Shown here: positions 28,124 to 51,553 of the stretch, one piece after another
How positions within the stretch are numbered: the stretch's first letter is position 1
Layout: each line of letters starts with the position of its first letter
NCBI RefSeq assembly: GCF_900102425.1
Contig: NZ_FNBT01000011.1
Location: 62,001 to 126,000, forward strand
Source: Blastococcus aurantiacus
Lineage (GTDB): Bacteria > Actinomycetota > Actinomycetes > Mycobacteriales > Geodermatophilaceae
Direction: 5' to 3'
DNA length: 64,000 bases
The notes under the pieces: model-generated
What the model was told of the DNA's origin: nothing
Databases searched by the model: none
Seen by the model: the letters and a program-made list of their open reading frames with translations, nothing else
Position numbers and translations under genes: made by a program

Positions 28124-28169
28124 GCAGCACCGAGCCCTGCCGGCGGCCACCTCGACGGCAGGCGCCCCC

Positions 28170-29202: not shown

Positions 29203-29208
29203 TAGGGT
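29203..29208 (+). promoter_or_regulatory. -10 box TAGGGT, leaderless start of acyltransferase gene
   Basis: TAGGGT, then CCGCTC, then ATG 29215. The 190-bp gap to the divergent hypothetical gene also holds an unusually AT-rich patch (29038-29075) that probably carries the minus-strand promoter. Confidence 0.6.
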
Positions 29209-29214
29209 CCGCTC

Positions 29215-30075: not shown

Positions 30076-30090
30076 GGCAGCGGGCGGCCC

Positions 30091-31212: not shown

Positions 31213-31337
31213 GGAGGGCCCTTGACCTGAGCCGGACGGCCGCATCCGGTCGAGATCGGCGTCATCCACCCCTCGTTCGGGTCAGGGAGGGAGGCGTTCC
31301 CGTGCCCGCGCCCGGGTGGAGGCCGCAGAGTCGAACC

Positions 31338-33290: not shown

Positions 33291-33830
33291 GCCCCTCCTG
33301 GTAACGATCCGGTCACAGTGACTCTCAGCTTCACCGTAGGTACCTGATCGGCCGCGGACTGTTCTTACAGTCCCTGCAGTTCCTCACCGGGAGCACCGAG
33401 ACGTGCCTCCCCGGATCGAGCGTGCGGGCCCCCCGGCCGGCACGGACGGCGCGTCCGCGCCGGCCGTGCGATCCAGGGCGTGGGGCCCGGCGTGAGACCC
33501 GGGGGAACGTCCGGCGACACCGGCGGAGCCCCCGAGATCCGCGTCATCAGACAACGGTCGAGCCGCACGCAGCCAGCGCGCGGCCGGCCGGCCCGAAGAC
33601 GCGGAACCGCGGCGGGCGGTCCGCCGGCGCATCTCCGGTCGCGGGACCTCTCCGGCGCCTCGGGGGCCTGCGCGACGTGTGCGGCCCCCGGCTCAGCCGG
33701 GATGGGATGCTGGGTCAGGGCCGCAGCGGCGAGTGCGGCGGTCCCGACCCCCCGTCCGACCGGACCGGGGCGCGAACCGGTGGCGGGGGAGACCCTGCCG
33801 TCCGGGCCGACGGTTCCCGGGAGGACGAGC
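33291..33830. other. 540-bp gap without a recognisable gene
   Basis: No frame here shows a known domain. A small hairpin (arms 33356-33362 and 33367-33373, loop TCTT) could end the glycosyltransferase transcript. The rest is very GC-rich with several short inverted repeats. An open frame continues upstream from lnt to 33480, but its translation is Arg/Gly/Pro low complexity. I see no promoter I trust; the lnt transcript may have a long leader. Confidence 0.5.
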
Positions 33831-35450
33831 GTGGCCACAGCACCGGGCACGCTGCTCCCTCCCGCCCCCGGGACCGAGCAGCCCGCGACCCGCCGTCTCG
33901 CGGACCGCCTGCCGTGGCGCACGCTGCTCGCGGTCGCCGGGGGACTGGCGATGATGCTGGCCTTCCCCGGACCCGCCCTGGTCCCGCTGGCCGTGCTCGG
34001 CCCGGCAGCGCTGGCGCTCGCGGTGCACGGCCGCAGCGCCCGAGGTGGCCTGTGGCTCGGCCTCGTGACGGGCCTGGCCTTCTTCGTCCCGCTGCTGAGC
34101 TGGACCGGCATCTACGTGGGCCCCCTGCCCTGGCTGGCGCTCGCGGTGTTCGAGGCACTGCACCTGGCCCTCCTGGGCGCGGCCACCGCACTGACGTCCC
34201 GCCTGCGGTGGTGGCCCCTCTGGGCGGCCGCGCTGTGGGTGGCGGACGAGGCGCTGCGCGGGCGGCTCATCCTGGGCGGGTTCCCCTGGGGCCGGCTGGG
34301 CTTCAGCCAGACCGACGGCCCGCTCCTGGCCCTCGCGGCCTACGGGGGAGTGCCCCTGGTCAGCTTCGCCGTGGCCCTCCTGGGCACGCTGCTGGCCGCG
34401 GCCGTGCTGGCCCTGCACCGCGTGCTCCGCTCGGAGCGGCCGGCACGACGGGCCGCTGCACGTCCGCTCGTCGGCGCCCTCGCTGGGCTCGTCGCGATCC
34501 CGCTCGTCGGGGCGGTGGCCTGGCTGCCGCTGCCGGGCGCATCGCTCACCGAGGGCGGGCCGACGTCGACCGTCGCGGTCATCCAGGGCGACGTGCCGCG
34601 GGCAGGGCTGGACTTCAACGCCCAGCGCCGGGCGGTCCTGGACAACCACGTGCAGCGCACCCTCGAGCTGGCCGACGCCGTGGCGGCCGGCGACCAGCCG
34701 CGCCCGGACGTCGTCCTCTGGCCCGAGAACAGCTCCGACATCGACCCCTACCTCAACGACGACGCCGCCGGGCAGATCCAGCGTGCCGCCCGGGCCATCG
34801 ACGCGCCCATCCTGGTCGGCGCCGTCGTGCAGGGCCCGGGACGGTTCATCAGCAACACCGCCATCGTCTGGGACCCCGAGGACGGCCCGGGCGACACCTA
34901 CGTGAAGCGGCACCCCGTACCGCTGGGCGAGTACGTCCCGGCGCGGAGCTTCTTCCGCTTCTTCAGCGACCAGGTCGACCGGGTCACCGATCAGCGGGCG
35001 GGGGAGGAGGCAGGCCTGCTCGAGATCGGGGACACCCGCATCGGCGACCTCATCTGCTTCGAGGTGGTCTACGACGGTTTGGTCGGCGACGTCGCCGGGG
35101 CCGGCATGCTCGTCGTCCAGACCAACAACGCCACCTTCGGGTACACCGCCGAGAGCGAGCAGCAGCTGGCGATGAGCCGGCTCCGGGCCGTGGAACACGG
35201 CCGCAGCGTCGCCGTGGCCGCGACGAGCGGGATCTCGGCGATCGTGGCGCCGGACGGCACCGTCGTGCGGTCGTCCCAGCTGTTCACCCCCGACGTCTTC
35301 GTGGAGGAGATCGCGCAGCGCGACTCCCGCAGCCTGGCGAGCCGCGTGGGCGCGGGGCCGGAGTGGGTGCTCACCGCGGTGGGACTCCTGGCGCTGGCAG
35401 CGGCGGTCAGGCAGCGCAGGAACTCCGGGACGGGCCCGGGAGCAAGGTGA
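33831..35450 (+). CDS. lnt: Apolipoprotein N-acyltransferase
   Basis: This 539-residue integral membrane enzyme adds the third acyl chain to lipoproteins. About six to seven N-terminal helices are followed by a nitrilase-type domain with the catalytic triad Glu (VLWPENSSDI), Lys (TYVKRHPVPLGEY) and Cys (GDLICFEVVYDG). A last helix precedes the C-terminus. GTG 33831 is preferred because GGGAGGACG precedes it and the hydrophobic region begins soon after. It is coupled to fxsA by a GTGA overlap. No polyprenol mannosyltransferase domain (as in M. tuberculosis Ppm1) is attached. Confidence 0.93.
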   Translation: MATAPGTLLPPAPGTEQPATRRLADRLPWRTLLAVAGGLAMMLAFPGPALVPLAVLGPAALALAVHGRSARGGLWLGLVTGLAFFVPLLSWTGIYVGPLPWLALAVFEALHLALLGAATALTSRLRWWPLWAAALWVADEALRGRLILGGFPWGRLGFSQTDGPLLALAAYGGVPLVSFAVALLGTLLAAAVLALHRVLRSERPARRAAARPLVGALAGLVAIPLVGAVAWLPLPGASLTEGGPTSTVAVIQGDVPRAGLDFNAQRRAVLDNHVQRTLELADAVAAGDQPRPDVVLWPENSSDIDPYLNDDAAGQIQRAARAIDAPILVGAVVQGPGRFISNTAIVWDPEDGPGDTYVKRHPVPLGEYVPARSFFRFFSDQVDRVTDQRAGEEAGLLEIGDTRIGDLICFEVVYDGLVGDVAGAGMLVVQTNNATFGYTAESEQQLAMSRLRAVEHGRSVAVAATSGISAIVAPDGTVVRSSQLFTPDVFVEEIAQRDSRSLASRVGAGPEWVLTAVGLLALAAAVRQRRNSGTGPGAR

Positions 35451-35974
35451 CCGTCCCGAGCGTTGGAACAACCGTGGGACGTCGCATACGCATCGCCGCC
35501 GGTCTCCTCGCCCTGGCCGAGGTCGTCGTGTTCGTGCTCGTGGCCGGGTGGATCGGCGCCGGGCTCACCGTGCTCCTCGCCCTGGCCACGAGCGTGCTGG
35601 GGTGGGTGCTGCTGGCCCGTCAGGGCACCCGCGCGCTGAGCGAGCTGCGGGAGAGCGCGCGCACCCGTCGCGCGGGCGCGGGTCGCGAACTGGGCGACGC
35701 CGGGCTGGTGGCCGCGGGTGGCGTGCTCATGGTGCTGCCCGGCTTCATCGGCGACGTCCTCGGTCTGCTGTGCCTGCTGCCGGGCACCCGGTCACTGGTG
35801 CGGGCCGCGCTGGGTCGGCTGATCGTCTCGCGGCTGCCGGTCGGACTGCGTCCCCCGGTCCGCGTCGACAGCGTCCGCACCGCGGAGATGCCGCGTCGGG
35901 ACCACGCACCGACGGCGCCCCTGGTCATCGAGGGCGAGGTGCTGCGCGGCCCGGACGGGCGCCCGCTCGTCTGA
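35447..35974 (+). CDS. fxsA: FxsA family membrane protein
   Basis: This 175-residue cytoplasmic-membrane protein of the FxsA family (named for suppression of phage T7 exclusion when overexpressed in E. coli) has hydrophobic segments at about residues 15-55 and 85-108. It contains the family motif GVLMVLPGFIGDVLGLLCLLP and a disordered tail. GTG 35447 overlaps the lnt stop by 4 nt. The same lnt-fxsA-rbpA neighbourhood occurs in other actinobacteria. Confidence 0.9.
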   Translation: MTVPSVGTTVGRRIRIAAGLLALAEVVVFVLVAGWIGAGLTVLLALATSVLGWVLLARQGTRALSELRESARTRRAGAGRELGDAGLVAAGGVLMVLPGFIGDVLGLLCLLPGTRSLVRAALGRLIVSRLPVGLRPPVRVDSVRTAEMPRRDHAPTAPLVIEGEVLRGPDGRPLV

Positions 35975-35984
35975 CCCGCCCCCA

Positions 35985-36031
35985 GCACGCAGAACGGCCC
36001 CGGTGGGATCCACCGGGGCCGTTCTGCGTGC
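35985..36031. terminator. Bidirectional terminator between fxsA and rbpA
   Basis: The perfect 22-bp arms 35985-36006 and 36010-36031 enclose the loop GAT. The hairpin lies midway between the convergent stop codons and is the longest perfect hairpin I found in the window. Confidence 0.9.
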
Positions 36032-36038
36032 GTGGTCG

Positions 36039-36383
36039 TCAGCTGGCGCGGGTCCGCCGGCCGCGCAGCACCTCGAGGCGCTCGGCGAGGACCTCCTCGA
36101 GGTCCTCGACGGAACGACGCTCGAGCAGCATGTCCCAGTGGGTGCGCGGCGGCTTGACCTTCTTGGGAGCCGGCTCGGAGCCGCCCACCAGCTTCGCCGC
36201 GGCGCCGTCGAACTTGCACTCCCACGTGTCGGGGAGCTCGGCGTCATCGGCGAAGGGCACCGTGAACAGGTGGCCCGACGGGCACCGGTACTCGGCGTAC
36301 TGGCGCTCGATGGGCGCGGTGTTCCGTTCGGTCTCGTAGCTGACGCTGCCCAGTCGGCTGCCGCGCAAGGAACGCTCGCCCAT
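36039..36383 (-). CDS. rbpA: RNA polymerase-binding protein RbpA
   Basis: This 114-residue actinobacterial transcription factor stabilises open complexes of the principal sigma factor. The N-terminal tail (MGERSLRGSRLGSVSYETER), the zinc-binding core (YRCPSGHLFTVPFA...DTWECKF) and the C-terminal sigma-interaction helix (THWDMLLERRSVEDLEEVLAERLE) are complete. The core shows two Cys and one His ligand. ATG 36383 has GAGGAC upstream. An exact SigR-type promoter lies about 85 bp upstream. Confidence 0.95.
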   Translation of the reverse strand: MGERSLRGSRLGSVSYETERNTAPIERQYAEYRCPSGHLFTVPFADDAELPDTWECKFDGAAAKLVGGSEPAPKKVKPPRTHWDMLLERRSVEDLEEVLAERLEVLRGRRTRAS

Positions 36384-36469
36384 TGCACACCGTCCTCTCG
36401 TACGTGGTGTCGGTTGGACTCGACGCCGGTGCACGGGACGTACCCACGAACCGAGGAGTCACAGAGATG

Positions 36470-36495
36470 AACGACAGAATTGGCGAAGAGATTCC
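36470..36495 (-). promoter_or_regulatory. SigR-type promoter of rbpA (GGAAT-N18-GTT)
   Basis: On the minus strand GGAAT (36491-36495) and GTT (36470-36472) are separated by exactly 18 nt (36473-36490), the consensus for the thiol-oxidative-stress sigma factor SigR of Streptomyces. From memory, rbpA is a SigR target there too. The transcript would start about 80 nt before the ATG. Confidence 0.8.
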
Positions 36496-36572
36496 GCCGA
36501 ATCGGTTGCCCATCATCGCATGGGGGGAGGTTCGGGCCCTCTGCCACCCCTCGGGAGGGTGAGCCCGGCGGC

Positions 36573-37310
36573 TCAGGGCAGCGCGAGCTGCCCCGGACCG
36601 GCCGCCGTGGGGCCCAGCTGACCCCGCACGTGGTGTCGGCGGCACAGGACCTGGTAGCGCACGGCGGGGGAGGAGCCGGGCTCCTGGCCGGGCAGCTGGG
36701 CCGGCGCGGTGTCGGCCACGACGACGGTCTCGCCCGCGCGCACCATGACGCCGTCGACCACGCGGGCGTTGAGCAGGCCCGGCAGGCCGCACCAGCACAG
36801 CACCTCCACCTGCACCCGCTGGACGTCGTCGGCGACCTCCAGCAGGCGCCGGGTGCCGGGGAACAGCTGGGTGCGGAAGTCGGTGGTCAGGCCGAAGGCG
36901 TAGACGTCGACGTGGAACTCGTCGACGAGCTCGGCGAGCTGGTCGACCTGCCGGTCGGTGAGGAACTGCGCCTCGTCGACGATCACGTAGTCGACGCGGC
37001 CGCCGGCGGCCCAGCGCTCGCGGACGAGCAGCCGGAGGTCGGTTCCCCCGTCGATCTCGATCGCGGCCCGGCACAGCCCCACGCGCGAGCTGATCTGGGG
37101 GGCCGCCGACCGGTCGCCCTGGGTGACCAGCAGCCCGTGCCTGCCCTGCCTGCTCTGGTTGTGGTCGACCTGGAGGGCGAGCGTGGACTTGCCGCAGTCC
37201 ATGGGGCCGTGGAAGAAGCGCAGGTGCGCCGGCGCGGGGTGACGCCGCCGGTCCCCGGACGCGGGGACCGCGGACGGACCGGCCACCGGCAGCGGGTCGA
37301 CGACGCTCAC
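36573..37310 (-). CDS. tdk: Thymidine kinase
   Basis: This 245-residue type II thymidine kinase of the salvage pathway has the P-loop FHGPMDCGKST, Walker B-like VIVDEAQFLTDRQVDQL, the lasso-domain strand VYAFGLTTDFRTQLFPG and a zinc site formed by CWCG and CRRHH. The N-terminal 28 residues before the P-loop strand are Pro/Ala-rich and the GTG start at 37310 is uncertain. The gene is 37 nt downstream of the GDPD gene and probably shares its transcript. Confidence 0.93.
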   Translation of the reverse strand: MSVVDPLPVAGPSAVPASGDRRRHPAPAHLRFFHGPMDCGKSTLALQVDHNQSRQGRHGLLVTQGDRSAAPQISSRVGLCRAAIEIDGGTDLRLLVRERWAAGGRVDYVIVDEAQFLTDRQVDQLAELVDEFHVDVYAFGLTTDFRTQLFPGTRRLLEVADDVQRVQVEVLCWCGLPGLLNARVVDGVMVRAGETVVVADTAPAQLPGQEPGSSPAVRYQVLCRRHHVRGQLGPTAAGPGQLALP

Positions 37311-37347
37311 CGCAGGACGACGGCGGCCGTGCCGGGCAGGAGCGGGG

Positions 37348-38124
37348 TCATCGCGAGGCCCACAGACCGCGCTCCTCCAGGACCTCGCGCAGCATCGCCG
37401 GTCGGTCGGTCATGATGCCGTCGACGCCGAGGTCGAGCATCGCGCGCGCCTCGTCCGGGTCGTCGACGGTCCACACGTGCACCTGCAGGCCGCGGGCGTG
37501 GGCGGCGGCCAGGAAGCGCTCGTCGACCAGGGCCCGGCCGCCGAGCTGGAGCGGCACCTGGGCGCAACCGGCCTGGATGCGCACGAGACCGGCCGCCCGG
37601 GGGGAGTAGGAGGACAACCGCAGCGCCGCCACGCCACGTGGGCCCAGCGAGGTGCACACGGTGGGACCGAACAGCCGGCGGGCCGCGGCGATGCGCGCGT
37701 CGGAGAACGAGCCGAGGCAGATTCGGTCGGCCACGCCCATCCGGTTCACCAGGCGCACCAGGGGTGCCAGGACCCCGGCGGCCTTGATGTCCAGGTTGAA
37801 CCGGACGTCCGGCCAGGCGCCGAGCAGGTCCTCCAGCCGCACGATGGGCTCGCGGCCGCCGATGCGGGCCTGGGACAGCTCCGACCAGTGCATCGCGTCC
37901 ACGCGCCCGGTGCGGTCGGTGACCCGCTCCAACGTGGCGTCGTGGAAGGCCACGAGGGTGCCGTCGGCGGTGATCTGGACGTCGGTCTCGAGGTACCGGT
38001 ACCCCAGGTCAACGCAGGCCTGGAACGCCGGGAGGGTGTTCTCCAGGTGCTCGATCGCACCGCCGCGATGAGCCATGGCGAGAGGCGTCGGCGCGTCGAG
38101 GTAGGCGAACCGCGCGGGGACCAC
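37348..38124 (-). CDS. Glycerophosphodiester phosphodiesterase
   Basis: This 258-residue TIM-barrel enzyme releases glycerol-3-phosphate from deacylated phospholipids. The catalytic block AHRGGAIEHLENTLPAF, the metal motif YLETDVQITADG with FHD after it, and the C-terminal VHVWTVDDPDEARAMLDLGVDGIMTDRP are all standard. No signal peptide is seen, so it acts in the cytoplasm. The GTG start is leaderless, with TAGCGT six bases upstream (minus strand 38131-38136). Confidence 0.92.
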   Translation of the reverse strand: MVPARFAYLDAPTPLAMAHRGGAIEHLENTLPAFQACVDLGYRYLETDVQITADGTLVAFHDATLERVTDRTGRVDAMHWSELSQARIGGREPIVRLEDLLGAWPDVRFNLDIKAAGVLAPLVRLVNRMGVADRICLGSFSDARIAAARRLFGPTVCTSLGPRGVAALRLSSYSPRAAGLVRIQAGCAQVPLQLGGRALVDERFLAAAHARGLQVHVWTVDDPDEARAMLDLGVDGIMTDRPAMLREVLEERGLWASR

Positions 38125-38130
38125 AGCGAC

Positions 38131-38136
38131 ACGCTA
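38131..38136 (-). promoter_or_regulatory. -10 box TAGCGT, leaderless start of GDPD gene
   Basis: The minus-strand TAGCGT is separated by AGCGAC (plus-strand reading) from the GTG at 38124. Confidence 0.55.
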
Positions 38137-38289
38137 GTCAGCCGCCCCGGTCGCCGCTGCGGGCACCCTGTCGCGGCACGCCGTGCCCACCGCCACGTGA
38201 CCGCCGGTCAGGCTCCTTCATCGCGGATCGATCGCGTTCCTGGCGTGTTCCGCAGGTCCTGTCGCCGGTGACGTCTAGCGTGCCGAGAC

Positions 38290-38691
38290 GTGGCACAGCA
38301 CGCGACCGGCACAGTGACGCACGGCCCCATCTCCCCCGCGCCCAACCGGGGGAGCGGCGAGGCCCGCCGGTGCGGGTGGTGCCGCCGCGTCCTGCCCGAG
38401 CAGGGCTCGGTCGGCCGCCCGCGCCTGTACTGCGGCCAGGCGTGCCGGCAGCGCGCCTACGAGCAGCGCTCCGCCACCGCCAAGGCAGGACTGCCGGCCG
38501 ACGTCGTCCTGGTCTCGCGCGCCGAGCTCGACGGGCTGCAGGACCGGCTGTACCAGCTGCGCTGCGCCCTGGAGGACGTGCAGACGCTCCTGACCGAGAA
38601 GCCGACCAAGGCCGAGCTCGAGCGCTCGCTGTCCGACCTCGTCCACTCGACGGGTCGGCTGGACCGGCTCTGGGTCACCGAACGCGGCTGA
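38290..38691 (+). CDS. Zinc-finger hypothetical protein
   Basis: This 133-residue protein has a putative Zn site CGWC...YCGQACRQRAYEQR, in which CxxC is followed about 20 residues later by CxxxC and a basic stretch reminiscent of FCS-type fingers. A predicted coiled coil follows (ELDGLQDRLYQLRCALEDVQTLLTEKPTKAELER). This suggests nucleic-acid binding, but I do not recognise a named family. TAGCGT (38276-38281) lies 8 nt before the GTG. Confidence 0.65.
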   Translation: MAQHATGTVTHGPISPAPNRGSGEARRCGWCRRVLPEQGSVGRPRLYCGQACRQRAYEQRSATAKAGLPADVVLVSRAELDGLQDRLYQLRCALEDVQTLLTEKPTKAELERSLSDLVHSTGRLDRLWVTERG

Positions 38692-38693
38692 CG

Positions 38694-38719
38694 GCCGGCA
38701 CCGGTCGCCCGGTACCGGC
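38694..38719. terminator. Hairpin between convergent genes
   Basis: The 11-bp arms 38694-38704 and 38709-38719 with one mismatch enclose loop TCGC, lying just after the stop of the zinc-finger protein and before the stop of the lipoprotein gene. Confidence 0.55.
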
Positions 38720-38755
38720 CGCCGGGGTCACGCGGGCCCAACGCTCACCCGGCGG

Positions 38756-39001
38756 TCAGTCCGGGTCGGTCGAGTCGTCGTTCTGGTCTTCCTCGTTGCC
38801 CGGGTCCGGGTCGCTGTTGTTCGGCACGTTGTCCTGCTCGTCGCCGCCCGGGTCGTTACCACTGGTGTTCTCGCTGTCGTCGTCCGTCGTGCCCTCGTTC
38901 GGCGTCGTTGGGTCCGAGCCCGAGCACGCGGTCATCGTGGCGCCGCCGCCGAAGAGCGCCAGAGCGGTCAGGAGCGCGGCGAGCGGTCGTCGAAGTTGCA
39001 T
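38756..39001 (-). CDS. Small lipoprotein with Asp/Asn/Glu-rich tail
   Basis: The 81 residues comprise a basic start (MQLRRPL), a hydrophobic stretch, the lipobox-like MTAC with Cys26, and then a low-complexity mature part made almost only of Asp, Asn, Glu, Gly, Pro, Ser and Thr. Such acidic tails may act as spacers or bind cations; no domain is visible. AGCCTA (TAGGCT on this strand) six bases upstream supports the start. Confidence 0.65.
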   Translation of the reverse strand: MQLRRPLAALLTALALFGGGATMTACSGSDPTTPNEGTTDDDSENTSGNDPGGDEQDNVPNNSDPDPGNEEDQNDDSTDPD

Positions 39002-39007
39002 GGCTCG

Positions 39008-39013
39008 AGCCTA
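39008..39013 (-). promoter_or_regulatory. -10 box TAGGCT, leaderless start of lipoprotein gene
   Basis: The minus-strand box is spaced six bases from the ATG at 39001. Confidence 0.5.
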
Positions 39014-39438
39014 CGAAGACCTGGTGCGGACCGCCCGTCGAAGCAGCCGAGTACCCGTCATTTCGTCACTGTTACGCAATGCGGTGGGTGTGGCTGGACG
39101 GGGGAGCCTGGTCACCCGGGGATGACAGGTCGTCACAGGCGGCCACGCGGCGCCCCGGGGTCGGGTCCGGCTCGTAGGAACAAGATCAACTCATGGGGGA
39201 GTCGACGGCCTGTGGAGCGGGTCATGCCGCCGGCGACCGGCGTCCGGACGACGGGTCGGACGCCGACCCGGGACGGGCGGCATCCGACGTGCGTGCACGA
39301 CACCTGGGGACGGACATGCGCGTCGGACGGCGGAACGCCGCGGCGTCGTCGACCTGCATGGAGCCAACGTAGAGCCGGGCGGCGACGTCGGTGTGAGCGC
39401 CTGGAGCGCTGAGCACCCCTCTCGACGCTCCCTGCCAT
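39014..39438. other. 425-bp gene-free stretch before dif
   Basis: I find no protein-like frame, RNA gene or strong hairpin here. Open frames on both strands translate to Arg/Gly-rich low complexity. Two GGGGGAG motifs (near 39100 and 39195) point toward dif. Confidence 0.5.
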
Positions 39439-39466
39439 TGCGCCGATAATGCACATTATGTCAACT
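39439..39466 (+). other. dif: Chromosome dimer resolution site dif
   Basis: A 28-bp XerC/XerD site: left arm TGCGCCGATAA (39439-39449), 6-bp centre TGCACA and right arm TTATGTCAACT (39456-39466). The inner parts form the inverted repeat GATAAT/ATTATG around the centre. Arm lengths, spacer and the TTATGT core equal E. coli dif, and GATAAT...ATTATGTCAA matches the actinobacterial form as I remember it. It lies in a gene-free gap and coincides with the switch of strand-polarised heptamers and of gene orientation, as expected at the replication terminus. Confidence 0.9.
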
Positions 39467-39532
39467 AGCGGAGCGCGACCCCGCCCTGAGCGCCGTCCGC
39501 CCCCTCCCGGACCGCTGGGGAACGATGGCCGC

Positions 39533-40141
39533 ATGGCGCGCACCTGGACCCACGTCGGCCGCTGCTGGAGCAACGGCGAGCCGTTCCTCGCCCTCGACGG
39601 CGACCTGCTGCCCGACTGGTCCGGCGAGACGGGCGGTCACTACGAACAGCTCGTGCCGAACCTCGACTACGAGCTCAGCAGCATCCCGGTGGGCGCCGGC
39701 CGGGCCGCCGTCGTCCTCACCGACGCCGAGGTCGCCGACGAGGGCTGGCTGGAGGTCTTCCGGGCCGACGACGACGCCGTCGCCGTGCTGCAGGTCTCGG
39801 GTGGCGACTACCCCACCGCCGTGGCGGCCGCCCTCGCGCAGCCGGACGACGCCGCGGAGCCGGGCGACCACATCACGGTGCCCAGCGGACGCTTCGCCTT
39901 CGTGAGCGCCGCATTGGACGGCGCCGGTGTGGAGGCCGCCCCGCTCCGCCCCGAGTCGCCCGGTCCGATCCCCGCCTCGGGTGACTACGACGAACGCCGA
40001 GCCGGTGCGGGCGCTCCCCTGCTGCGGGCCACCGCCCACGGCTACCGGATCTGGGTGCAGTGGAGAACCGAGCTCGGCGGGGACGCCGTCTTCGCCCGGT
40101 GGCTGTTCGTCCCGGCGTCGGGCGACATTCCGTCACGGTGA
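39533..40141 (+). CDS. Hypothetical protein, possibly Imm21-like
   Basis: This 202-residue soluble acidic protein has an N-terminal pattern (W..GEPFLALDGDLLPDWSG, then DYELSSIPVGAGRAAVVLTDAEV) similar to the Imm21 family of polymorphic-toxin immunity proteins, but I hold this only weakly and no toxin gene is nearby. ATG 39533 is preferred over an in-frame ATG at 39449, because the extra residues are Pro/Arg-rich and that ATG lies inside dif. It ends at a strong terminator. Confidence 0.5.
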   Translation: MARTWTHVGRCWSNGEPFLALDGDLLPDWSGETGGHYEQLVPNLDYELSSIPVGAGRAAVVLTDAEVADEGWLEVFRADDDAVAVLQVSGGDYPTAVAAALAQPDDAAEPGDHITVPSGRFAFVSAALDGAGVEAAPLRPESPGPIPASGDYDERRAGAGAPLLRATAHGYRIWVQWRTELGGDAVFARWLFVPASGDIPSR

Positions 40142-40164
40142 CGTATCCCCCGTCCCGGAGCGGG

Positions 40165-40197
40165 GCCCGGTCGCTCCCGGACCGGGAGCGACCGGGC
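40165..40197. terminator. Bidirectional terminator
   Basis: The perfect 16-bp complementary arms 40165-40180 and 40182-40197 lie between the stops of the hypothetical gene and the ABC permease gene. Confidence 0.8.
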
Positions 40198-40201
40198 GCC
40201 G

Positions 40202-40993
40202 TCAGCCGATCTCGCTGCGCACGATCCGGATCCAGCCGGCCACCATGGGCGCCAGCCCCCACAGCGCCACCGACGTCGCCACCTGTGCCCAGCCCTGGCC
40301 GTCCAGCGACCCGTCGTACATCGGCCCGGTCGTCGTGGTGAGGTCGAGCCAGTCGCGCATCCAGGTCAGGGAGCCGACGGTGTTCGACACGATGGTCACG
40401 ACCGTCGGCAGGACGAAGTACAGGACGATGGCCAGCGGCGAGCTGAGCAGCAGCATGCCGAAGGCGATCCCGATGAGGATCGTGATCACCTGGACGAGCA
40501 CGGCCTGGCCCACCTGGGCGCCGCTGACCCCCCAGGCCGACGAGTCCTCCGTCAGCACGGGCGTGAGCAGGGCACCCAGGGCCGACGCGACCGCGGCGGC
40601 CGCGACCCCGAGCAGGCCCAGGACGACGCCGGCGAGCACCTTGGCGGTCAGGACCCGGGACCGGGCCGGCACGAGGGCGAAGGTGGTCATCGCCGTGCGC
40701 TGCGACCACTCGCTGGTCACCAGCAGGATCCCCACGACCGGCAGCAGCAGGCCCACGGGCAGCTGCGTCGTCGCGAAGAACATGTCGAAGGTCTTGTCCG
40801 GCTCGTCGGCGAAGAACAGCTGCAGGAGCACGACGGCCAGCGAGGCCAGCGCGACGACCAGCAGCAGCCAGAAGCCGGCGCGGGTGTCGTAGCTCTTCCG
40901 CAGCTCGACGCGCGTGAGCCTCAGCAGGGAGGGCGCGGCGGCCGGCTCCCCCACCCGGGGCGTCGTGGGCTGCTCGATGGTGGCGGTGCTCAT
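40202..40993 (-). CDS. ABC transporter permease (ABC-2 type)
   Basis: This 263-residue membrane subunit has six helices, starting about residue 40 (GFWLLLVVALASLAVVLLQLF). The LLVTSEWSQRTAMTTFALVPAR loop after helix 2 is typical of ABC-2 permeases that carry drugs, peptides or lipids outward. A short soluble N-terminus (STATIEQPTTPRVG) precedes it. Its ATG overlaps the stop of the ATPase gene by 4 nt, so they form one exporter. The adjacent divergent two-component system may regulate it. Confidence 0.88.
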   Translation of the reverse strand: MSTATIEQPTTPRVGEPAAAPSLLRLTRVELRKSYDTRAGFWLLLVVALASLAVVLLQLFFADEPDKTFDMFFATTQLPVGLLLPVVGILLVTSEWSQRTAMTTFALVPARSRVLTAKVLAGVVLGLLGVAAAAVASALGALLTPVLTEDSSAWGVSGAQVGQAVLVQVITILIGIAFGMLLLSSPLAIVLYFVLPTVVTIVSNTVGSLTWMRDWLDLTTTTGPMYDGSLDGQGWAQVATSVALWGLAPMVAGWIRIVRSEIG

Positions 40994-41916
40994 GCCCGGG
41001 TCTCCTGGATCTGGGTGGCGGTGGTGGGTGACGTGCCGGCCGACGGGCCGGTCAGCGAGCGGAACAGCTCCTCCAGCCGGTCTCCCCCCGCCGGGCGGAG
41101 CTCCAGCAGCGCCACCCCGGCGGTGGCGGCGGCGAGGCCCACCGCCTCCGCCGGGGCGTCGGCCACGAGCCCGTCGGCCAGCCCGGGAACGGCGCCGATG
41201 CCTGCGGCGGTCAGCGCGGCGGTGAGGGCGGCGGAGTCGCGGGCCCGCACGAGGCTGCCGGTGCTCGCGAGCAGCTCCGCGCTGCTCCCCTGGGCCACGA
41301 TGCGGCCGCCGGCGATGACCACGAGCTGGTCGGCGACCGCCTCGACCTCGCGGAGAAGGTGCGAGGAGAGCAGCACCGTGCCGCCCCGGTCGGCGAAGCC
41401 GCGCAGCAGCCCGCGCATCCAGAAGATGCCGTCGGGGTCCAGGCCGTTGGCCGGCTCGTCGAGGATCAGCACCTGCGGGTCGCCCAGCAGCGCCATGGCC
41501 AGGCCGAGCCGCTGGCGCATGCCCAGGGAGTACTTGCCCACGCGCTTGCCGGCCGGCTTGCCGGCGAGGCCCACGTGCTCGAGCACCTCGTCCACGCGGG
41601 TCCGGGGAACCCCTTGGACCAGCGCCGCGAGGGTGAGGGCCTCCCGGCCCGTGCGGCCCGAGTGCTGGGCGCCGGCGTCGAGGAGGACACCCACGTGCCG
41701 GCCGGCGTTGGGCAGCTCGCGGTAGGGGCGTCCGCCCACGGTGGCGGTGCCGCTGGTGGGCAGGGTCAGGCCGCACACCGCGCGCAGCGTGGTGGACTTG
41801 CCGGCCCCGTTGGGCCCGAGGAAGCCGGTCACGGTGCCGGGCGCGCAGGAGAAGGACACGTCGGAGACGGCGAGCTGGGCGCCGTACCGCTTGGTCAGGT
41901 GTTCGACGGTGATCAC
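40990..41916 (-). CDS. ABC transporter ATP-binding protein
   Basis: This 308-residue ATPase partner has Walker A GPNGAGKST, signature SLGMRQRLGLAMALLG, Walker B VLILDEPANGLDP and H-loop SSHLLREV. A C-terminal extension of about 90 residues (ALTAALTAAGIGAVPGLADG...) resembles that of drug/lantibiotic exporters. GTG 41916 (MITVEHLTKRYG) has GGGAGGG about 10 nt upstream; an ATG 15 codons earlier is less likely. Confidence 0.92.
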   Translation of the reverse strand: MITVEHLTKRYGAQLAVSDVSFSCAPGTVTGFLGPNGAGKSTTLRAVCGLTLPTSGTATVGGRPYRELPNAGRHVGVLLDAGAQHSGRTGREALTLAALVQGVPRTRVDEVLEHVGLAGKPAGKRVGKYSLGMRQRLGLAMALLGDPQVLILDEPANGLDPDGIFWMRGLLRGFADRGGTVLLSSHLLREVEAVADQLVVIAGGRIVAQGSSAELLASTGSLVRARDSAALTAALTAAGIGAVPGLADGLVADAPAEAVGLAAATAGVALLELRPAGGDRLEELFRSLTGPSAGTSPTTATQIQETRA

Positions 41917-42041
41917 GGGGACACCCTCCCGCGACTCCCTCGCCGTCCGCGTCAGCCGCACGGCGAGACCACTGCGACGAAGGTCGACGGCGCGCGCACC
42001 GTCCTAGACCTTCGTCGGTGTCACCGGGACCTCGCCGTCCG

Positions 42042-42047
42042 TAGCCT
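42042..42047 (+). promoter_or_regulatory. -10 box TAGCCT, leaderless start of the sensor kinase gene
   Basis: TAGCCT, six bases, then GTG 42054. The 137-bp gap to the ABC genes is divergent and also contains CCTTCGTCG-type near-repeats (CGACGAAGGTCGACGG at 41975-41990; GACCTTCGTCGGTG at 42007-42020), a possible operator. Confidence 0.6.
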
Positions 42048-42053
42048 GCTGGG

Positions 42054-43343
42054 GTGAGCACCGTCCTCCAGCCGCCGCCGGGGCCGCATCCGGGCGTGGA
42101 CCACCCCTCGTTGGTCCCCGCGCTGCTGCTGGCCGACTCCCTCTCCCCCGGTGTCGACGGCGACGAGCGGCGGCCGGTGCGCCGGTCGGTCCGCGACTGG
42201 GTCGTGGACGTCTCCTTGTTCCTCACGGCCGTCGGTGTCGGACTCCTCCTCCTGGTCGAGTCGACCAACCGCGTGGACCCGCCGTCGGACGGCACGGTGT
42301 TCGCCGACCTCGTCGTCGGGCTGGTCAGCTGCCTGTTCCTGTGGGGACGTCGACGGTGGCCGGTCGGCGTCGCCGTCGTCCTGGCCCTGGTCAGCGCCTT
42401 CTCGGCCACAGCCGGGATGGCCTGCCTCATCGCCCTGTTCACCGTGGCGGTGCACCGCACGTGGCGCACCGTGCTGCTCGTGGCGGCGGTCAACTTCGTC
42501 GCGTTCACCGTCTACGACCACTTCCGCCCCGATCCCGAGCTGCCCTGGCCGCTGACGCTGGCGCTCGGGGCGGCGCTGACCGCCGCCGTCGTCGCCTGGG
42601 GCATGTTCGTGCGCGCCCGTCGCCAGTTGGTCGTCTCGCTGCGGGACCGGGCCTGCCGCGCCGAGTCGGAGCAGCGGCTGCGCGTGGACCAGGCGCGGCA
42701 GCTCGAGCGGACCCGGATCGCCCGCGAGATGCATGACGTGCTCGCGCACCGGCTCTCGCTGCTGAGCATGCACGCCGGAGCCCTGGAGTACCGGCCGGAC
42801 GCCTCGCCCGCCGAGGTGGCCCGGGCGGCCGGGGTGATCCGCGCGAGCGCCCGCGGCGCGCTGGAGGACCTGCGGGACGTCATCGGGGTGCTGCGGGACA
42901 CCGGCGACGGCACGCTGTCCGACCGGCCCCAGCCCACCCTGGCCGACCTCGCCGCCCTGGTGGAGCAGTCGCGCGGCGCCGGGCTGCGCGTGCGCATGGA
43001 GTACCGGGTGCCCGACGTGGCGGCCGTGCCGGCGGTCACCGGACGCACGGTCTACCGGGTCGTCCAGGAGGCGCTGACGAACGTCCGCAAGCACGCCGGG
43101 GGCACCGTCGCCTGCGTCCGGGTGACGGCCGACCCGGCCAGCGGCATCGAGGTGATGGTGACCAACCCGGCACCGGTCGGCACCGATCCCGCCGCGCCGC
43201 TGCCCGGATCGGGCACGGGTCTGATCGGCCTGGTGGAGCGCGTCGGGCTGGCGGGTGGCTCGCTCGAGCACGGGTGGACCGCCGACGGCGAGTTCCGGCT
43301 GCGCGCCCGGCTGCCCTGGCCGGCCCCGGCGGTGCAGGGGTGA
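42054..43343 (+). CDS. Two-component sensor histidine kinase (HisKA_3 type)
   Basis: This 429-residue kinase has about five membrane helices in residues 50-190 and no large external domain, so it probably senses the membrane. The phospho-acceptor block is REMHDVLAHRLSLLSMHAG, the dimer helix runs to RDVIGVLR, and the HATPase_c domain has VVQEALTNVRKHAGG and GSGTGLIGLVERV. It is followed by its regulator with a GTGA overlap. Similar LiaS/DesK-like kinases control adjacent ABC exporters in response to cell-envelope stress (inference here). Confidence 0.93.
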   Translation: MSTVLQPPPGPHPGVDHPSLVPALLLADSLSPGVDGDERRPVRRSVRDWVVDVSLFLTAVGVGLLLLVESTNRVDPPSDGTVFADLVVGLVSCLFLWGRRRWPVGVAVVLALVSAFSATAGMACLIALFTVAVHRTWRTVLLVAAVNFVAFTVYDHFRPDPELPWPLTLALGAALTAAVVAWGMFVRARRQLVVSLRDRACRAESEQRLRVDQARQLERTRIAREMHDVLAHRLSLLSMHAGALEYRPDASPAEVARAAGVIRASARGALEDLRDVIGVLRDTGDGTLSDRPQPTLADLAALVEQSRGAGLRVRMEYRVPDVAAVPAVTGRTVYRVVQEALTNVRKHAGGTVACVRVTADPASGIEVMVTNPAPVGTDPAAPLPGSGTGLIGLVERVGLAGGSLEHGWTADGEFRLRARLPWPAPAVQG

Positions 43344-44017
43344 GCGAGAGCGCCGTACGCGTCCTGGTCGTGGACGACGACCCGCTGGTCCGGGCGGCCC
43401 TGGCCATGGTGCTCGGCGGGTCCGGTGACTGCGTGCTCGTGGGCGAGGCCGCCGACGGCGAGGAGGTGCCGGCGGCCGTCGCGGCGCACGCGCCCGACGT
43501 CGTCCTCATGGACATCCGCATGCCGCAGGTCGACGGGCTGACCGCCACCGAGCGGCTGCGGGCCCGGCCCGGCGGGCCGGAGGTCATCGTGCTCACCACG
43601 TTCGACGCCGACGCCTCCGTGCTGCGGGCGCTGCGCGCCGGAGCCAGCGGGTTCCTGCTCAAGGACACCCCGCCGGCGGCGATCGTGGACGCCGTGCGCC
43701 GGGTCGCCGCGGGGGAACCGATGCTCTCCCCCACCGTCACCCGCCAGCTGATGGCCCACGTCGCCGAGGTCGAGCAGTCGGTGGGCGGCCCCGACGTCCG
43801 GCGAGCCACGGCGCTGGCGCTGCTCGACCGGCTCAGCGAGCGTGAGCGCGAGGTGGCCCTGGCGGTGGGCCGCGGGCTGTCCAACGCGCAGATTGCCGCC
43901 GAGGCCTACATGAGCGTGGCGACGGTCAAGGCGCACGTCTCCCGCCTGCTCACCAAGCTCGAGGCGGCCAACCGCGTGCAGGTGGCCCTCGTGGTGCACG
44001 ACGCCGGGCTGGCCTGA
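43340..44017 (+). CDS. LuxR-family response regulator
   Basis: This 225-residue regulator has a receiver domain with the acidic pair DDDP, the phospho-Asp in VVLMDIRMPQVDG and the Lys of LLKDTPP. Its C-terminal LuxR HTH is LSEREREVALAVGRGLSNAQIAAEAYMSVATVKAHVSRLL. The start is set by the overlap with the kinase stop codon. The likely targets are the divergent ABC genes. Confidence 0.95.
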   Translation: MSESAVRVLVVDDDPLVRAALAMVLGGSGDCVLVGEAADGEEVPAAVAAHAPDVVLMDIRMPQVDGLTATERLRARPGGPEVIVLTTFDADASVLRALRAGASGFLLKDTPPAAIVDAVRRVAAGEPMLSPTVTRQLMAHVAEVEQSVGGPDVRRATALALLDRLSEREREVALAVGRGLSNAQIAAEAYMSVATVKAHVSRLLTKLEAANRVQVALVVHDAGLA

Positions 44018-44082
44018 GCACCGATGAGTCCGCGCCGCCGGGCAGGTCACCGACCTCGACACCCGAGATGCCTGGAGGCCTG

Positions 44083-44445
44083 ATGCCCGACACCGTGCGC
44101 CCGATCGTCGTGACCGCCGACATCGACGCGATGGAACGCTTCTACACCCGGCTCTTCGCGGCGGAGGTCGCCGAGCGGTACCCGGAGGAGGGCCCGCTCT
44201 TCTACCTGGGTCTGCGCATCGGCGACTCCCCGCTGGGGCTGTCGGCGAGCAGCGATGTGTCCCCCGGCGTGCCGGGCCGCGTCCTGCTCGGCATCGAGGT
44301 GCCCGACGTCGACGCCGCCCTGGCGCAGGTGCCGGCCCTCGGCGGGCAGGCACCGTCCGGGGCGAACGACATGCCGTGGGGCCAGCGCGTCGCGCACGTC
44401 ACCGATCCCGACGGCAACGCGATCAACCTCACCCAGCAGCTTTGA
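44083..44445 (+). CDS. VOC-superfamily (glyoxalase-like) protein
   Basis: This 120-residue vicinal oxygen chelate fold consists of two beta-alpha-beta-beta-beta modules: RPIVVTADIDAMERFYTRLF and VLLGIEVPDVDAALAQVPALGG, ending in VTDPDGNAINLTQ. Activity is unknown; relatives include antibiotic-binding and dioxygenase proteins. ATG 44083 is chosen because TGGAGG precedes it; ATG 44068 is upstream of that site. Confidence 0.85.
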   Translation: MPDTVRPIVVTADIDAMERFYTRLFAAEVAERYPEEGPLFYLGLRIGDSPLGLSASSDVSPGVPGRVLLGIEVPDVDAALAQVPALGGQAPSGANDMPWGQRVAHVTDPDGNAINLTQQL

Positions 44446-44495
44446 CCTCGGCGACGACGGGTAGCCGCACTCCGACGACGAGTGCAGGAGGACCC

Positions 44496-44684
44496 GTGCC
44501 TGATCCACGGCCCGACACCGACGAGCGCGCCGAGCCCGGCGGCTCCCCCACGCACGGCCAGGACGACCTGATCCGCAAGCCGGTGACGCCGGGCACCGAC
44601 GACGGACCCACCGCCGTCCCTGGTGCGTACGAGGCCGACGACGAGGAACGGGAGCGCGGCAAAGCGGTCAAGCCCGGCAACTGA
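44496..44684 (+). CDS. Small hydrophilic protein
   Basis: The 62 residues are charged and without hydrophobic segments, so probably disordered (DERAEPGGSPTHGQDDLIRKPV, YEADDEERERGKAV). A very good ribosome binding site (GCAGGAGGA at 44484-44492) precedes GTG 44496, which makes translation likely. I do not recognise a family. Confidence 0.6.
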   Translation: MPDPRPDTDERAEPGGSPTHGQDDLIRKPVTPGTDDGPTAVPGAYEADDEERERGKAVKPGN

Positions 44685-44731
44685 CCTCGACCTGACGGGC
44701 GTTCCCAGGTCGCTGCGGTTGACTGCCGGGC

Positions 44732-45448
44732 GTGGACGCACTCGGCCGGTTCTGGGACCGGGTCAGCGCTCCAGCTCCCGACCTCTCCCCCACCGTCCTG
44801 CTCGCCACCGCGGCCGTCGCGGCGCTGCTCGTCCTGTACGGCCCGCTGTGGCGGCTCACCCGCCACGCGGTGACGATCGCGCACGAGGGCGCGCACGGCC
44901 TCGTCGCCCTGGCGGTCGGCAGGCGGCTGGCGGGCATCCGGCTGCACTCGGACACCTCCGGGGTCACCGTCTCCTCCGGGCGGCCGACCGGCATCGGCAT
45001 GGTGCTCACCTGCGCCGCGGGCTACACCGGTCCCGGGCTGTTCGGCCTCGGCGCCGCCGCCCTCCTCGCGGCCGGGCACGCGGTGGGTGCCCTGTGGGCG
45101 CTGGTCGGCCTCCTCGGGCTGCTGCTGGTGCAGATCCGCAACTGGTACGGCCTCTGGTCGGTGCTGGTGAGCGGCGGCCTGGTGCTCGCCGCCACCTGGT
45201 TCCTGCCCCAGGAGGCCCAGGCCGCCTTCGCCGCCGTCACCACCTGGTTCCTGCTGCTGGCCGCACCCCGCGCCGTCGTCGAGCTGCAGCGCGCCCGCCG
45301 CCACCGGCAGGCCCCGGAGTCCGACGCCGACCAGCTGGCCCGGCTCACTCGCGTCCCCGGCCTGGTCTGGGTCGGGATCTTCCTCCTCGTGGACGTCGGC
45401 GCGCTGCTGCTCGGCGGCAGCTGGCTGCTGGCCGGGACCTCCGGCTAG
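44732..45448 (+). CDS. M50-like membrane metallopeptidase
   Basis: This 238-residue membrane protein has the zinc motif HEGAH in VTIAHEGAHGLVALAVG at the end of the first helices and about five to six helices overall, fitting the M50B group of intramembrane proteases. The second ligand motif (NxxPxPxLDG) is not obvious, so activity is uncertain. Its TAG stop and the stop of the convergent GH65 gene share the sequence CTAG at 45445-45448. Confidence 0.8.
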   Translation: MDALGRFWDRVSAPAPDLSPTVLLATAAVAALLVLYGPLWRLTRHAVTIAHEGAHGLVALAVGRRLAGIRLHSDTSGVTVSSGRPTGIGMVLTCAAGYTGPGLFGLGAAALLAAGHAVGALWALVGLLGLLLVQIRNWYGLWSVLVSGGLVLAATWFLPQEAQAAFAAVTTWFLLLAAPRAVVELQRARRHRQAPESDADQLARLTRVPGLVWVGIFLLVDVGALLLGGSWLLAGTSG

Positions 45449-47835
45449 TCCAGCGTGCGGTGCTCGAGCGGCGGAGTGCCGGGGCGGGTGCGCCGGCGCG
45501 GTTCGCAGCCCTTGGGCTGGCTGACCGGATCGACCTGCAGGGCCGGCGGGATGTCGAGCACGAGATCCGCATGGTCCACGAGCACGAGGCGGCCGTGGTG
45601 GCGGATCTCCAGCGGCTCACCGGTGTCCAGCCGGTAGGTGGCCTGCGTCGGCGTCACCGACACGACCAGCTTCCGGCCCCGGAAGACCACCCGGAACCGC
45701 AGCTTCGTGAGCCGGCTGGGCAGCCGCGGTGCGAAGGTCAGCTCGCCCTCGTGGTCGCGCAGCCCGCCGAAACCCGCGACGGCGACGGTCCAGCCGCCGG
45801 CCAGCGACGCGATGTGCAGCCCGTGCCCGGAGTTGTGGTGCAGGTTCTGCAGGTCGGTCAGCGCGGCCTCGGCCCAGTAGTCGTACGCCAGGTCGAGGTG
45901 CCCGGTCTCGGCCGCGACGACGCCCTGCTCGCTCGCCGACAGCGAGGAGTCCCGCGTGGTCCGCGCCTCGTAGTAGGCGAAGTTGGCGATCTTCTCCTCG
46001 AGGGTGAAGGCGTCCCCGCGCAGGTGCAGCGCCATGACCAGGTCGGCCTGCTTGACCACCTGCTTCCGGTAGAGCTCGAAGTAGGGGTAGTGCAGCAGCA
46101 GCGGGTAGTGGTCGGCCGGCGTACGCGCGAAGTCCCACTCCTCGTGGTGGGTGAACCCGTCGGACTGCATGTGCACGCCGTGCTGGGTGTCGTAGGGCAC
46201 CGCCATGAGCGCCGCCGCCCGCAGCCAGACCTCGACCTCCTCGTCCGCCAGGCCCAGCCGGCGCGCCACGTCGGGCTGCCGGGCCACCGCCCGCGCGCCC
46301 TCGCGCAGGTTGCGCTGTGCCATGAGGTTGGTGAAGACGTTGTTGTCGACCACCGCGGTGTACTCGTCCGGCCCGGTCACCCCGTCGATCCGGAAGCCGT
46401 GCTCGTCGTCGAAGTGCCCCAGTGACGCCCAGAGCCGGGCGGTCTCGATGAGCAGCTCAGCGCCGAAGTCGCGGTCGAAGTCCTCGTCCATCGTGGCGTT
46501 GTAGTAGCGCACCACGGCGTCGGCGATGTCGGCGTTGATGTGGAAGGCCGCCGTCCCCGCGGGCCAGTAGCCCGAGGTCTCCTCACCGCGGATCGTCCGC
46601 CAGGGGAAGACCGCGCCGCGCAGGCCGAGCACCCGGGCCCGCTCGCGGGCAAGCTCGAGGATCGAGTGCCGCCAGCGGAGGGCGTCCCGCGCGGCCTCCG
46701 GTGCCGTGTAGGTGAGCACCGGCAGGACGTAGGTCTCGGTGTCCCAGAACGTGTGCCCGTCGTAGCCCGGGCCGGTGAGCCCCTTGGCCGGGATGGGTTG
46801 GCGCTCGGCGCGCAGCCCGGCCTGGAGGACGTGGAACATGCCGACCCGCACGGCCTGCTGCAACTCGTCGTCGCCCTCGATCTCGACGTCGGCCTCGTCC
46901 CAGTGCTGGTCGAGCAGTTCACGCTGCTCCCGCAGCAGCCTCTCGAAGCCGGCCAGCTTCGCCGTCGCCAGGGCCGCCTCGACCTGGTCGCGCAGCGCCG
47001 CGCCCGAGCGACGGGAGGACCAGCCGTAGGCCAGGTACTTGACCAGCTTCAGCGAGCCTCCCGGGGGGATCCGGGCGGCGAGGGTGTACCGGGCGAGGTC
47101 GCCGTTGGCGAGGATGTCCTCGGTGCTGGTGTCGGGCACGTCGACGTCGTGGTCCATGCCGGCGGCCATCCGCAGCCGGCTCCGGGCCGTGCGGTGCACC
47201 AGGACGGCACGCCGTCCCCGGCCGACGGAGAACTCGCTCTGCAGCGGGTTGTCCAGGGCCGCGGCCGCGCGCGGGTCGTCGCTGTCGCCGTGGCTCGTCT
47301 CGTTGGCCAGCAGGTCGGACTGCAGCGCCACGTACAGGTCGCCGAGGTCGTCGAGGACCTCCACCTGGTACTCGATGGCGGCGATGGACCGGCGGGCCAG
47401 CGAGACCAGCCGCGTGCTGGTCACGCGCACGCACCGGCCGCCCGGCGAGCGCCACTCGGTGCTCCGCCGCAGCACCCCGGCGCGCAGGTCGAGAGTGCGG
47501 CGGTGGTCGAGGATCTCGCCGTAGTTGAGGTCGAGCGGAGAGTCCTTGACCAGCAGCCGGATCAGCTTGCCGTCGGTGACGTTGACGACCGTCTGGCCCT
47601 GCTCCGGATAGCCGTAGCCGCGCTCGGCGTAGGGCAGCGGCCGCTCCTCGTAGAAGCCGTTGAGATAGGTGCCGGGCACGACCACCGGCTCGCCCTCGTC
47701 GAACGAACCGCGCATGCCGATGTGCCCGTTGGCCAGCGCGAACACCGACTCGTGCACGCCCAGCGTCGAGTGGTCCAGGCCGATCTCGGTCAGCGACCAC
47801 GGCTCGATCGGGAAGGTCGGGCGCCCCTCGGTCAT
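45445..47835 (-). CDS. GH65 disaccharide phosphorylase (maltose/trehalose/kojibiose type)
   Basis: This 796-residue inverting phosphorylase splits an alpha-glucosyl disaccharide with phosphate to beta-glucose-1-phosphate. An N-terminal beta-sandwich (LTEIGLDHSTLGVHESVFALANGHIG) is followed by the (alpha/alpha)6 barrel with GPGYDGHTFWDTETYVLPV and the catalytic Glu in GVTGPDEYTAVVDNNVFTN, then a C-terminal beta-sandwich. The upstream beta-phosphoglucomutase gene overlaps its ATG, so the product can be converted at once to glucose-6-phosphate. The pair matches M. tuberculosis Rv3401/Rv3400 as I recall. Confidence 0.93.
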   Translation of the reverse strand: MTEGRPTFPIEPWSLTEIGLDHSTLGVHESVFALANGHIGMRGSFDEGEPVVVPGTYLNGFYEERPLPYAERGYGYPEQGQTVVNVTDGKLIRLLVKDSPLDLNYGEILDHRRTLDLRAGVLRRSTEWRSPGGRCVRVTSTRLVSLARRSIAAIEYQVEVLDDLGDLYVALQSDLLANETSHGDSDDPRAAAALDNPLQSEFSVGRGRRAVLVHRTARSRLRMAAGMDHDVDVPDTSTEDILANGDLARYTLAARIPPGGSLKLVKYLAYGWSSRRSGAALRDQVEAALATAKLAGFERLLREQRELLDQHWDEADVEIEGDDELQQAVRVGMFHVLQAGLRAERQPIPAKGLTGPGYDGHTFWDTETYVLPVLTYTAPEAARDALRWRHSILELARERARVLGLRGAVFPWRTIRGEETSGYWPAGTAAFHINADIADAVVRYYNATMDEDFDRDFGAELLIETARLWASLGHFDDEHGFRIDGVTGPDEYTAVVDNNVFTNLMAQRNLREGARAVARQPDVARRLGLADEEVEVWLRAAALMAVPYDTQHGVHMQSDGFTHHEEWDFARTPADHYPLLLHYPYFELYRKQVVKQADLVMALHLRGDAFTLEEKIANFAYYEARTTRDSSLSASEQGVVAAETGHLDLAYDYWAEAALTDLQNLHHNSGHGLHIASLAGGWTVAVAGFGGLRDHEGELTFAPRLPSRLTKLRFRVVFRGRKLVVSVTPTQATYRLDTGEPLEIRHHGRLVLVDHADLVLDIPPALQVDPVSQPKGCEPRRRTRPGTPPLEHRTLD

Positions 47836-48575
47836 GCCTGCTCCCCCAGCAGCAGCTCGAGGTCGTCCACGACGATGTCGGCCCCCGCTTCGGCCAGCGC
47901 ATCGGACTGCCTCACCCGGTCCACTCCCACGACGTACCCGAATCCACCGGCCCGGCCGGCGGCCACGCCGGACAGCGCGTCCTCGAAGACCACCGCGGCG
48001 GACGGCTCGACACCGAGCAGCCGGGCCCCGGCCAGGAAGGTGTCCGGCTCGGGCTTGCCCCGCAGGCCGTCGCGGGCGGCGACGACGCCGTCCACGCGCG
48101 CGTCGATGAGGTCGGCGAACCCGCCGGCGGCGATGACCTGCTCCCCGTTGGCCGAGGCGGTCACCACCGCGGTGGGCAGGCCGGCCTCCCTGACCGCGCG
48201 GAGGTACCGCACGGAGCCGGGGTAGACCTCCACGCCGTGCTCCTCGAGCTCGCGGAGCACCAGCTCGTTCTTGCGGGTGGCGATCGCCTGGACGGTCGAC
48301 GCGTCGGGCGGGTCGGCCGGGCCGCCCTCGGGAAGGGTGATGCCGCGGCTGGCGAGGAAGCCGCGCACGCCGTCGGCCCGGTGCTTGCCGTCCACGAAGC
48401 TGTTGTAGTCGGACTGGCTGAACTCCGGCTGCCCGGGGTCGAAGCGGGCGAGGAACTCGTCGAAGGTGCGTTTCCACGCGGCCATGTGCACGGTGGCGGT
48501 GCGGGTGAGCACACCGTCGAGGTCGAAGAGGCACGCGCGGACGGACTCGGGCAGCCCCAGGCCGGATACAGGCAC
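47832..48575 (-). CDS. Beta-phosphoglucomutase-like HAD hydrolase
   Basis: This 247-residue HAD IA enzyme has motif [15 protein letters not shown], a helical cap ([27 protein letters not shown]), motif [10 protein letters not shown], and the motif III Lys and motif [21 protein letters not shown]. The cap and the neighbour GH65 gene identify it as a beta-phosphoglucomutase, which moves phosphate from C1 to C6 of beta-glucose. GTG 48575 has TAGCGT seven bases upstream (minus strand 48583-48588). Confidence 0.92.
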
Positions 48576-48582
48576 GGCAGGG

Positions 48583-48588
48583 ACGCTA
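48583..48588 (-). promoter_or_regulatory. -10 box TAGCGT of the phosphoglucomutase-GH65 operon
   Basis: The minus-strand box is spaced seven bases from the GTG at 48575, so the operon mRNA starts at or within a base of the start codon. Confidence 0.5.
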
Positions 48589-48730
48589 CCGGCGCGGAGG
48601 TTGCCGCACCGTTCCGACGCAGCGACGGTCCTGTGCCGACGCGCGCGACACGCCGCGCCTGCCTAGGGTCGCGACGAGGACGCGCCCGTGGTGGCGACGT
48701 CCGATCCCGCTCCGCGTCGAGAGGACCGAC

Positions 48731-49276: not shown

Positions 49277-49277
49277 G

Positions 49278-51538: not shown

Positions 51539-51553
51539 CCTCACCGCTCCGGT

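Follow-up and report, generated by a model that had tools for sequence, protein, structure and literature searches.

A predicted chromosomal XerCD dif site in a draft Blastococcus genome and the heptamer GGGGGAG as a candidate actinobacterial KOPS

The stretch of DNA analysed here (the window, 64,000 nucleotides) corresponds to bases 62001-126000 of contig C7 of a draft Blastococcus assembly (G000). On its + strand, at 39439-39466 (contig bases 101439-101466), it holds a 28-mer with the layout 11-6-11, TGCGCCGATAA-TGCACA-TTATGTCAACT, which a sequence-only reading of the window had picked out as a dif site with this architecture; the letters reported there are exact. By analogy with the dif site of Escherichia coli, the left arm, TGCGCCGATAA, is presumably the XerC half and the right arm, TTATGTCAACT, presumably the XerD half, with TGCACA as the putative place of strand exchange. 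The features of the locus are as follows, G017 being a congener:

2253..39201, + strand: left arm of the window, with 29 copies of GGGGGAG on + (towards dif) and 2 on - (4989, 38331)
38314..38691, + strand: predicted gene on the other side of dif, 125 aa; homologue of 90.8% identity in the corresponding position of G017
39439..39449, + strand: left 11-bp arm of the predicted dif, TGCGCCGATAA, read from the sequence; its CGATAA portion is kept in relatives
39450..39455, + strand: central 6 bp, TGCACA, read from the sequence; congeners vary here (e.g. TCGACG, TCAACG)
39456..39466, + strand: right 11-bp arm of the predicted dif, TTATGTCAACT, read from the sequence; its TTATGTCAA portion is kept in relatives
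39533..40141, + strand: predicted gene beside dif, 202 aa; homologue of 61.5% identity beside dif in G017
39195..40946, no strand: interval holding the switch in GGGGGAG polarity (contig positions 101195 and 102946 minus 62000)
40946..63120, - strand: right arm of the window, with 18 copies of GGGGGAG on - (towards dif) and 0 on +

Following a simple gene call, the site indeed lies in a gene-free gap, as had been claimed: the nearest gene on the right starts at 39533, 66 bases downstream of dif, and the nearest on the left is the gene whose end is at 38691, unless a doubtful 59-aa ORF that stops at 38935 is counted. The mechanical list of ORFs includes a 285-aa ORF that reaches 39125 and another that could begin within dif, at 39449. 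Neither the 202-aa nor the 125-aa gene matched any Pfam family at E 0.001 or any NCBIfam family at 1e-10. Between about -65 kb and about +74 kb (the contig end) around the site, C7 has the gene order of G017, inverted and interrupted in places, with matching genes on both sides of dif; left of about -65 kb the synteny is lost. The third to fifth genes to the right of dif (window 40990-44017) encode an ABC transporter ATPase, a histidine kinase and a response regulator; G017 lacks partners for them in this position, and relatives of them are present in the dif locus of Blastococcus TF02A-30 (L080).

When up to three mismatches were allowed, the 28-mer matched a single place in the window and none in 100 shuffles, and it likewise occurred just once in the whole assembly (a draft of 4,163,046 bases in 18 contigs, 97.19% complete), the copy number that the sequence-only reading had predicted. 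A core pattern with the outer bases left free also found one place in the assembly at up to three mismatches. Symmetry of the arms was rejected as evidence for dif: only five of 11 positions are complementary, and since about 22% of the 28-base positions along C7 reach that value, which is at chance level, palindromy alone would not single out the site.

Conservation of the site was examined across a set of 60 genomes that includes our own. The full 28-mer was found at up to three mismatches in 17 of them, once each, and the core pattern, at the same looseness, in 58, with no match in G046 and G056. Exactly one core copy is present in 53 of these 58 genomes; the remaining five (G028, G037, G043, G045 and G055) have more than one, in each case one copy within a single mismatch and the rest at three mismatches. 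A reversed control pattern, at the three-mismatch looseness, matched once in G055 and once in G058. Every one of the 23 genomes in the genus, ours among them, carries exactly one core copy. Within the genus (G000-G022), the central six bases end in ACA in eight genomes and in ACG in 15, and the arm bases included in the core pattern differ only in G003 and G021.

Scanning a larger collection with the core pattern yielded at least 120 loci. The 120 among the matches listed carry the core by construction, and their fixed columns are therefore no evidence of conservation. By record label, 118 of these 120 are actinobacterial, the remaining two being labelled as a Bacillus sp. (unverified) and a proteobacterial MAG, and the best flank matches among those listed come from Blastococcus and Geodermatophilus. 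The free columns of the same 120 loci favour C at position 5 (103/120) and T at position 28 (106/120). An accessory sequence was sought in the 40 bases on each side of dif in the 120 listed loci; of these, only the first two on the right are conspicuous, with A at 68% and 52%.

The genome encodes proteins expected to act at such a site. In a search with the XerD model the best match (325.4 bits) was C7:149427-150335, which lies 48 kb right of dif; a second strong match, of 263.8 bits, is on contig C12, and three weak integrase-like matches (53-67 bits) are located 66 kb away or on another contig. The best match falls about 4 bits below the NCBI curated XerD cut-off of 329.6, so that no match in our genome passes it; all of the 14 control genomes gave matches to the same model, and only four passed. 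The ORFs behind both strong matches are open throughout and read as tyrosine recombinases. Judged by eye, their neighbours resemble parA and an alanine dehydrogenase gene on C7, and dprA and a sigma factor gene on C12, which are typical settings of xerD and xerC, respectively; the pair is assigned to XerD and XerC by score and by these neighbourhoods. The FtsK gamma domain has one match in the genome, at 86.9 bits and above its cut-off. XerC, XerD (its match being under the cut-off) and FtsK gamma are thus all present. One of the weak matches, which scores 66.9 bits with the XerD model and is an integrase-like tyrosine recombinase, lies at C7:34778-35695 (L141), about 26 kb left of the window start and 66 kb left of dif.

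Relatives with more contiguous assemblies allow the site to be placed with respect to the origin. G017 has its 3,701,696 bases in one contig; dnaA is at base 34 and dif at 1833691-1833718, 49.5% of the way round. In three other one-contig relatives (G021, G008 and G047) it is found at 46.4, 51.7 and 52.5% from dnaA. The corresponding values are about 48 and about 52% in G051 and G036 (genome sizes rounded to 4.2 Mb), and in G042 (6.2 Mb, three contigs) the distance from dnaA is 3.21 Mb. These seven genomes were picked from among those with dif on contig 1. In our own draft assembly DnaA is on C17 and dif on C7; the site is here predicted to lie opposite oriC by synteny with G017 only, because it is syntenic with the G017 site at 49.5%. 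A fixed polarity of dif relative to dnaA was considered and rejected, the two being on the same strand in two of the seven genomes and on different strands in five.

The switch in strand-biased heptamers that had been reported at the site is real and sharp. Along the 176 kb of C7, GGGGGAG occurs in 54 forward and three reverse copies to the left of dif and in one forward and 38 reverse copies to the right; the best switch falls between contig bases 101195 and 102946, hence within 1.75 kb, and its change-point score was reached by none of 500 permutations. With the contig split at dif, GGGGGAG ranks first among the heptamers present in at least 10 copies. The same holds for G017, where the counts within 200 kb of dif are 70/8 and 5/78 and the best switch lies between -877 and +240 bases of dif. 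In 35 samples of 20 kb taken from G017 outside the terminus, GGGGGAG has the highest strand-bias score of all heptamers, with 200 copies on the leading and 31 on the lagging strand. On the leading strand of G017 its density is 3.7 copies per 10 kb up to 200 kb from dif, 2.9-4.0 out to 1.2 Mb and 1.0-2.5 farther away, a loose fall towards the origin. Close to dnaA in this genome (C1 3650001-3690000 and 1-20000; L221, L239, L222), the heptamer is mixed or reversed, with six leading and 12 lagging copies over 60 kb, and the sample at 3600001 still agrees with its arm (13 to 2). This pattern would fit an origin-side switch near 3.62-3.65 Mb or a small inversion.

Pooling the 120 loci among the matches listed (at most 8 kb each) gives 478 copies of GGGGGAG pointing towards dif and four pointing away. 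Locus by locus, 109 of the 120 have only pointing copies, four are mixed, none has only opposed copies and seven lack the heptamer, which ranks first among the 12,847 heptamers that occur at least 20 times in these loci. Distances from dif to the nearest copy are scattered in the same set, with just three pointing copies within 200 bases of dif, and the idea of a fixed spacing was rejected. The KOPS of E. coli is GGGNAGGG, and this motif was rejected as the one at work here for want of clear polarity: on C7 it counts 14/10 to the left and 11/15 to the right, a split equalled by 88 of 500 permutations, and in G017 29/26 and 28/36, again with no clear polarity. The bias of GGGGGAG towards dif on both arms makes it a clear candidate for an actinobacterial KOPS, given the near-perfect pooled polarity around the actinobacterial dif sites examined. 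We further lean, with reservation, towards regarding it as a phylum-wide actinobacterial FtsK-orienting sequence, which under strict selection would point to dif within a few kb in about 99% of cases (478 of 482 in the 120 loci among the matches listed) and would constitute a class of KOPS distinct from the E. coli motif.

Two other proposed anchors proved less useful. The orientation of genes had been said to switch at dif and is loosely supportive, 29 of 38 genes being on + to the left and 15 of 25 on - to the right (simple gene call, window), but the best single change-point falls at 51553 (log-likelihood gain 14.0, compared with 4.2 at 39532). The support is loose because this switch lies some 12 kb to the right of dif and not at it, and gene orientation was rejected as an anchor. 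A GC-skew extreme at the site had been proposed as a check, and none was found there in the window alone; over the whole of C7 the maximum of the cumulative skew lies 22 kb right of dif, and in the 400-kb stretch read in G017 the extreme is 62 kb from dif. In the 20-kb samples from G017, G exceeds C in 13 of 17 before dif and C exceeds G in 11 of 18 after it, so the skew, while weak, is not contrary to the two arms and loosely follows them in this genome; being weak and offset, it too was rejected as an anchor.

A dif-like site need not be chromosomal, as phages, ICEs and IMEX elements copy dif sites, and the 28-mer could in principle be the attachment site of such an integrated element relying on the host XerCD. 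A third, weaker tyrosine recombinase is encoded 66 kb to the left on the same contig (C7:34778-35695), and the genes from about +1.5 to +4.6 kb are without a partner at that place in G017. However, integration of an element at dif normally results in two copies and the assembly has one, the gene order near the site agrees with that of G017 on both sides, and the three weaker matches to the Xer model are 66 kb distant or on another contig; we consider this explanation very improbable. That the 28-mer is a functionless chance sequence in an intergenic region near a transcription start, in keeping with its position 66 bases upstream of a predicted gene and with the mere five of 11 complementary arm positions, has a negligible probability against the matching place in G017, the core in 58 of 60 genomes, the lack of any match in 100 shuffles and the coincidence of the GGGGGAG switch with the site.

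The interpretation as chromosome dif is thus upheld, and we regard the 28-mer at 39439-39466 as almost certainly the chromosomal XerCD dif, because it is present in a single copy, is conserved, is accompanied in the genome by Xer and FtsK-gamma genes, has near-antipodal counterparts in relatives (46.4-52.5% in the four with one contig) and coincides with the GGGGGAG switch. The further claim that the replication terminus lies in the window is acceptable in the sense of a terminus region: PMC3025954 argues that replication ends close to dif, though not exactly at the site.

Observed directly in the genomes were the 28-mer as a conserved single copy, the recombinase and FtsK genes, where the site lies in relatives and the way the motif points; for the binding, the pairing of FtsK with GGGGGAG and the recombination we extrapolate from E. 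coli and other models. XerC and XerD, as tyrosine recombinases, would bind the two 11-bp arms. Once a crossover has fused the sister chromosomes into a dimer, FtsK, the translocase at the septum, would take its direction from G-rich polar motifs (most likely GGGGGAG) and pump the DNA until both copies of dif come together there. FtsK would then activate XerD, and strand exchange across TGCACA would turn the dimer into two monomers.

For practical purposes, dif anchors both replichores of the draft genome and orients contig C7, and the pooled polarity of GGGGGAG can serve to locate or verify dif rapidly in draft genomes of Actinobacteria. As a site it is textbook, an ordinary actinobacterial dif that would separate linked sister chromosomes before division. 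Some wider interest attaches to GGGGGAG, whose polarity is nearly perfect around the actinobacterial sites examined. A literature search found no paper dealing with both Blastococcus and a dif site and, in partial texts, nothing further on GGGGGAG as a KOPS, which is no proof of absence.

Compared with the known actinobacterial XerCD dif, which has been predicted in 66 of 66 single-chromosome Actinobacteria (PMC3025954, in part), the site described here shows no difference of note: it has the same 28 bp in the 11-6-11 layout and the same single copy, and it occupies the same place, opposite oriC (in the one-contig relatives) and at the switch of strand-biased octamers, with outer bases and the central six varying by species. 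The core it has in common with other Actinobacteria comes from our genome comparison and not from published consensus letters; PMC3164646 credits an actinobacterial consensus to Hendrickson and Lawrence 2007. In Corynebacterium, dif was located with the octamers G(A/T/C)GGGGGA and (T/C)GGGGGAG (PMC2830990 and PMC3164646); PMC3164646 describes both as actinobacterial, with reference to Hendrickson and Lawrence 2006 and 2007. GGGGGAG forms part of these AIMS octamers, and here it is the most polarised heptamer, lies on the leading strand and switches at dif; the octamers are described for Corynebacterium in those two papers, and the present data concern a Blastococcus genome and the congener G017. 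FtsK gamma and KOPS are described, by way of introduction, in work on mycobacterial FtsK (PMC13277299, in part). GGGGGAG and the E. coli KOPS are both G-rich and polar; the E. coli motif points FtsK to dif, and GGGGGAG would do so too.
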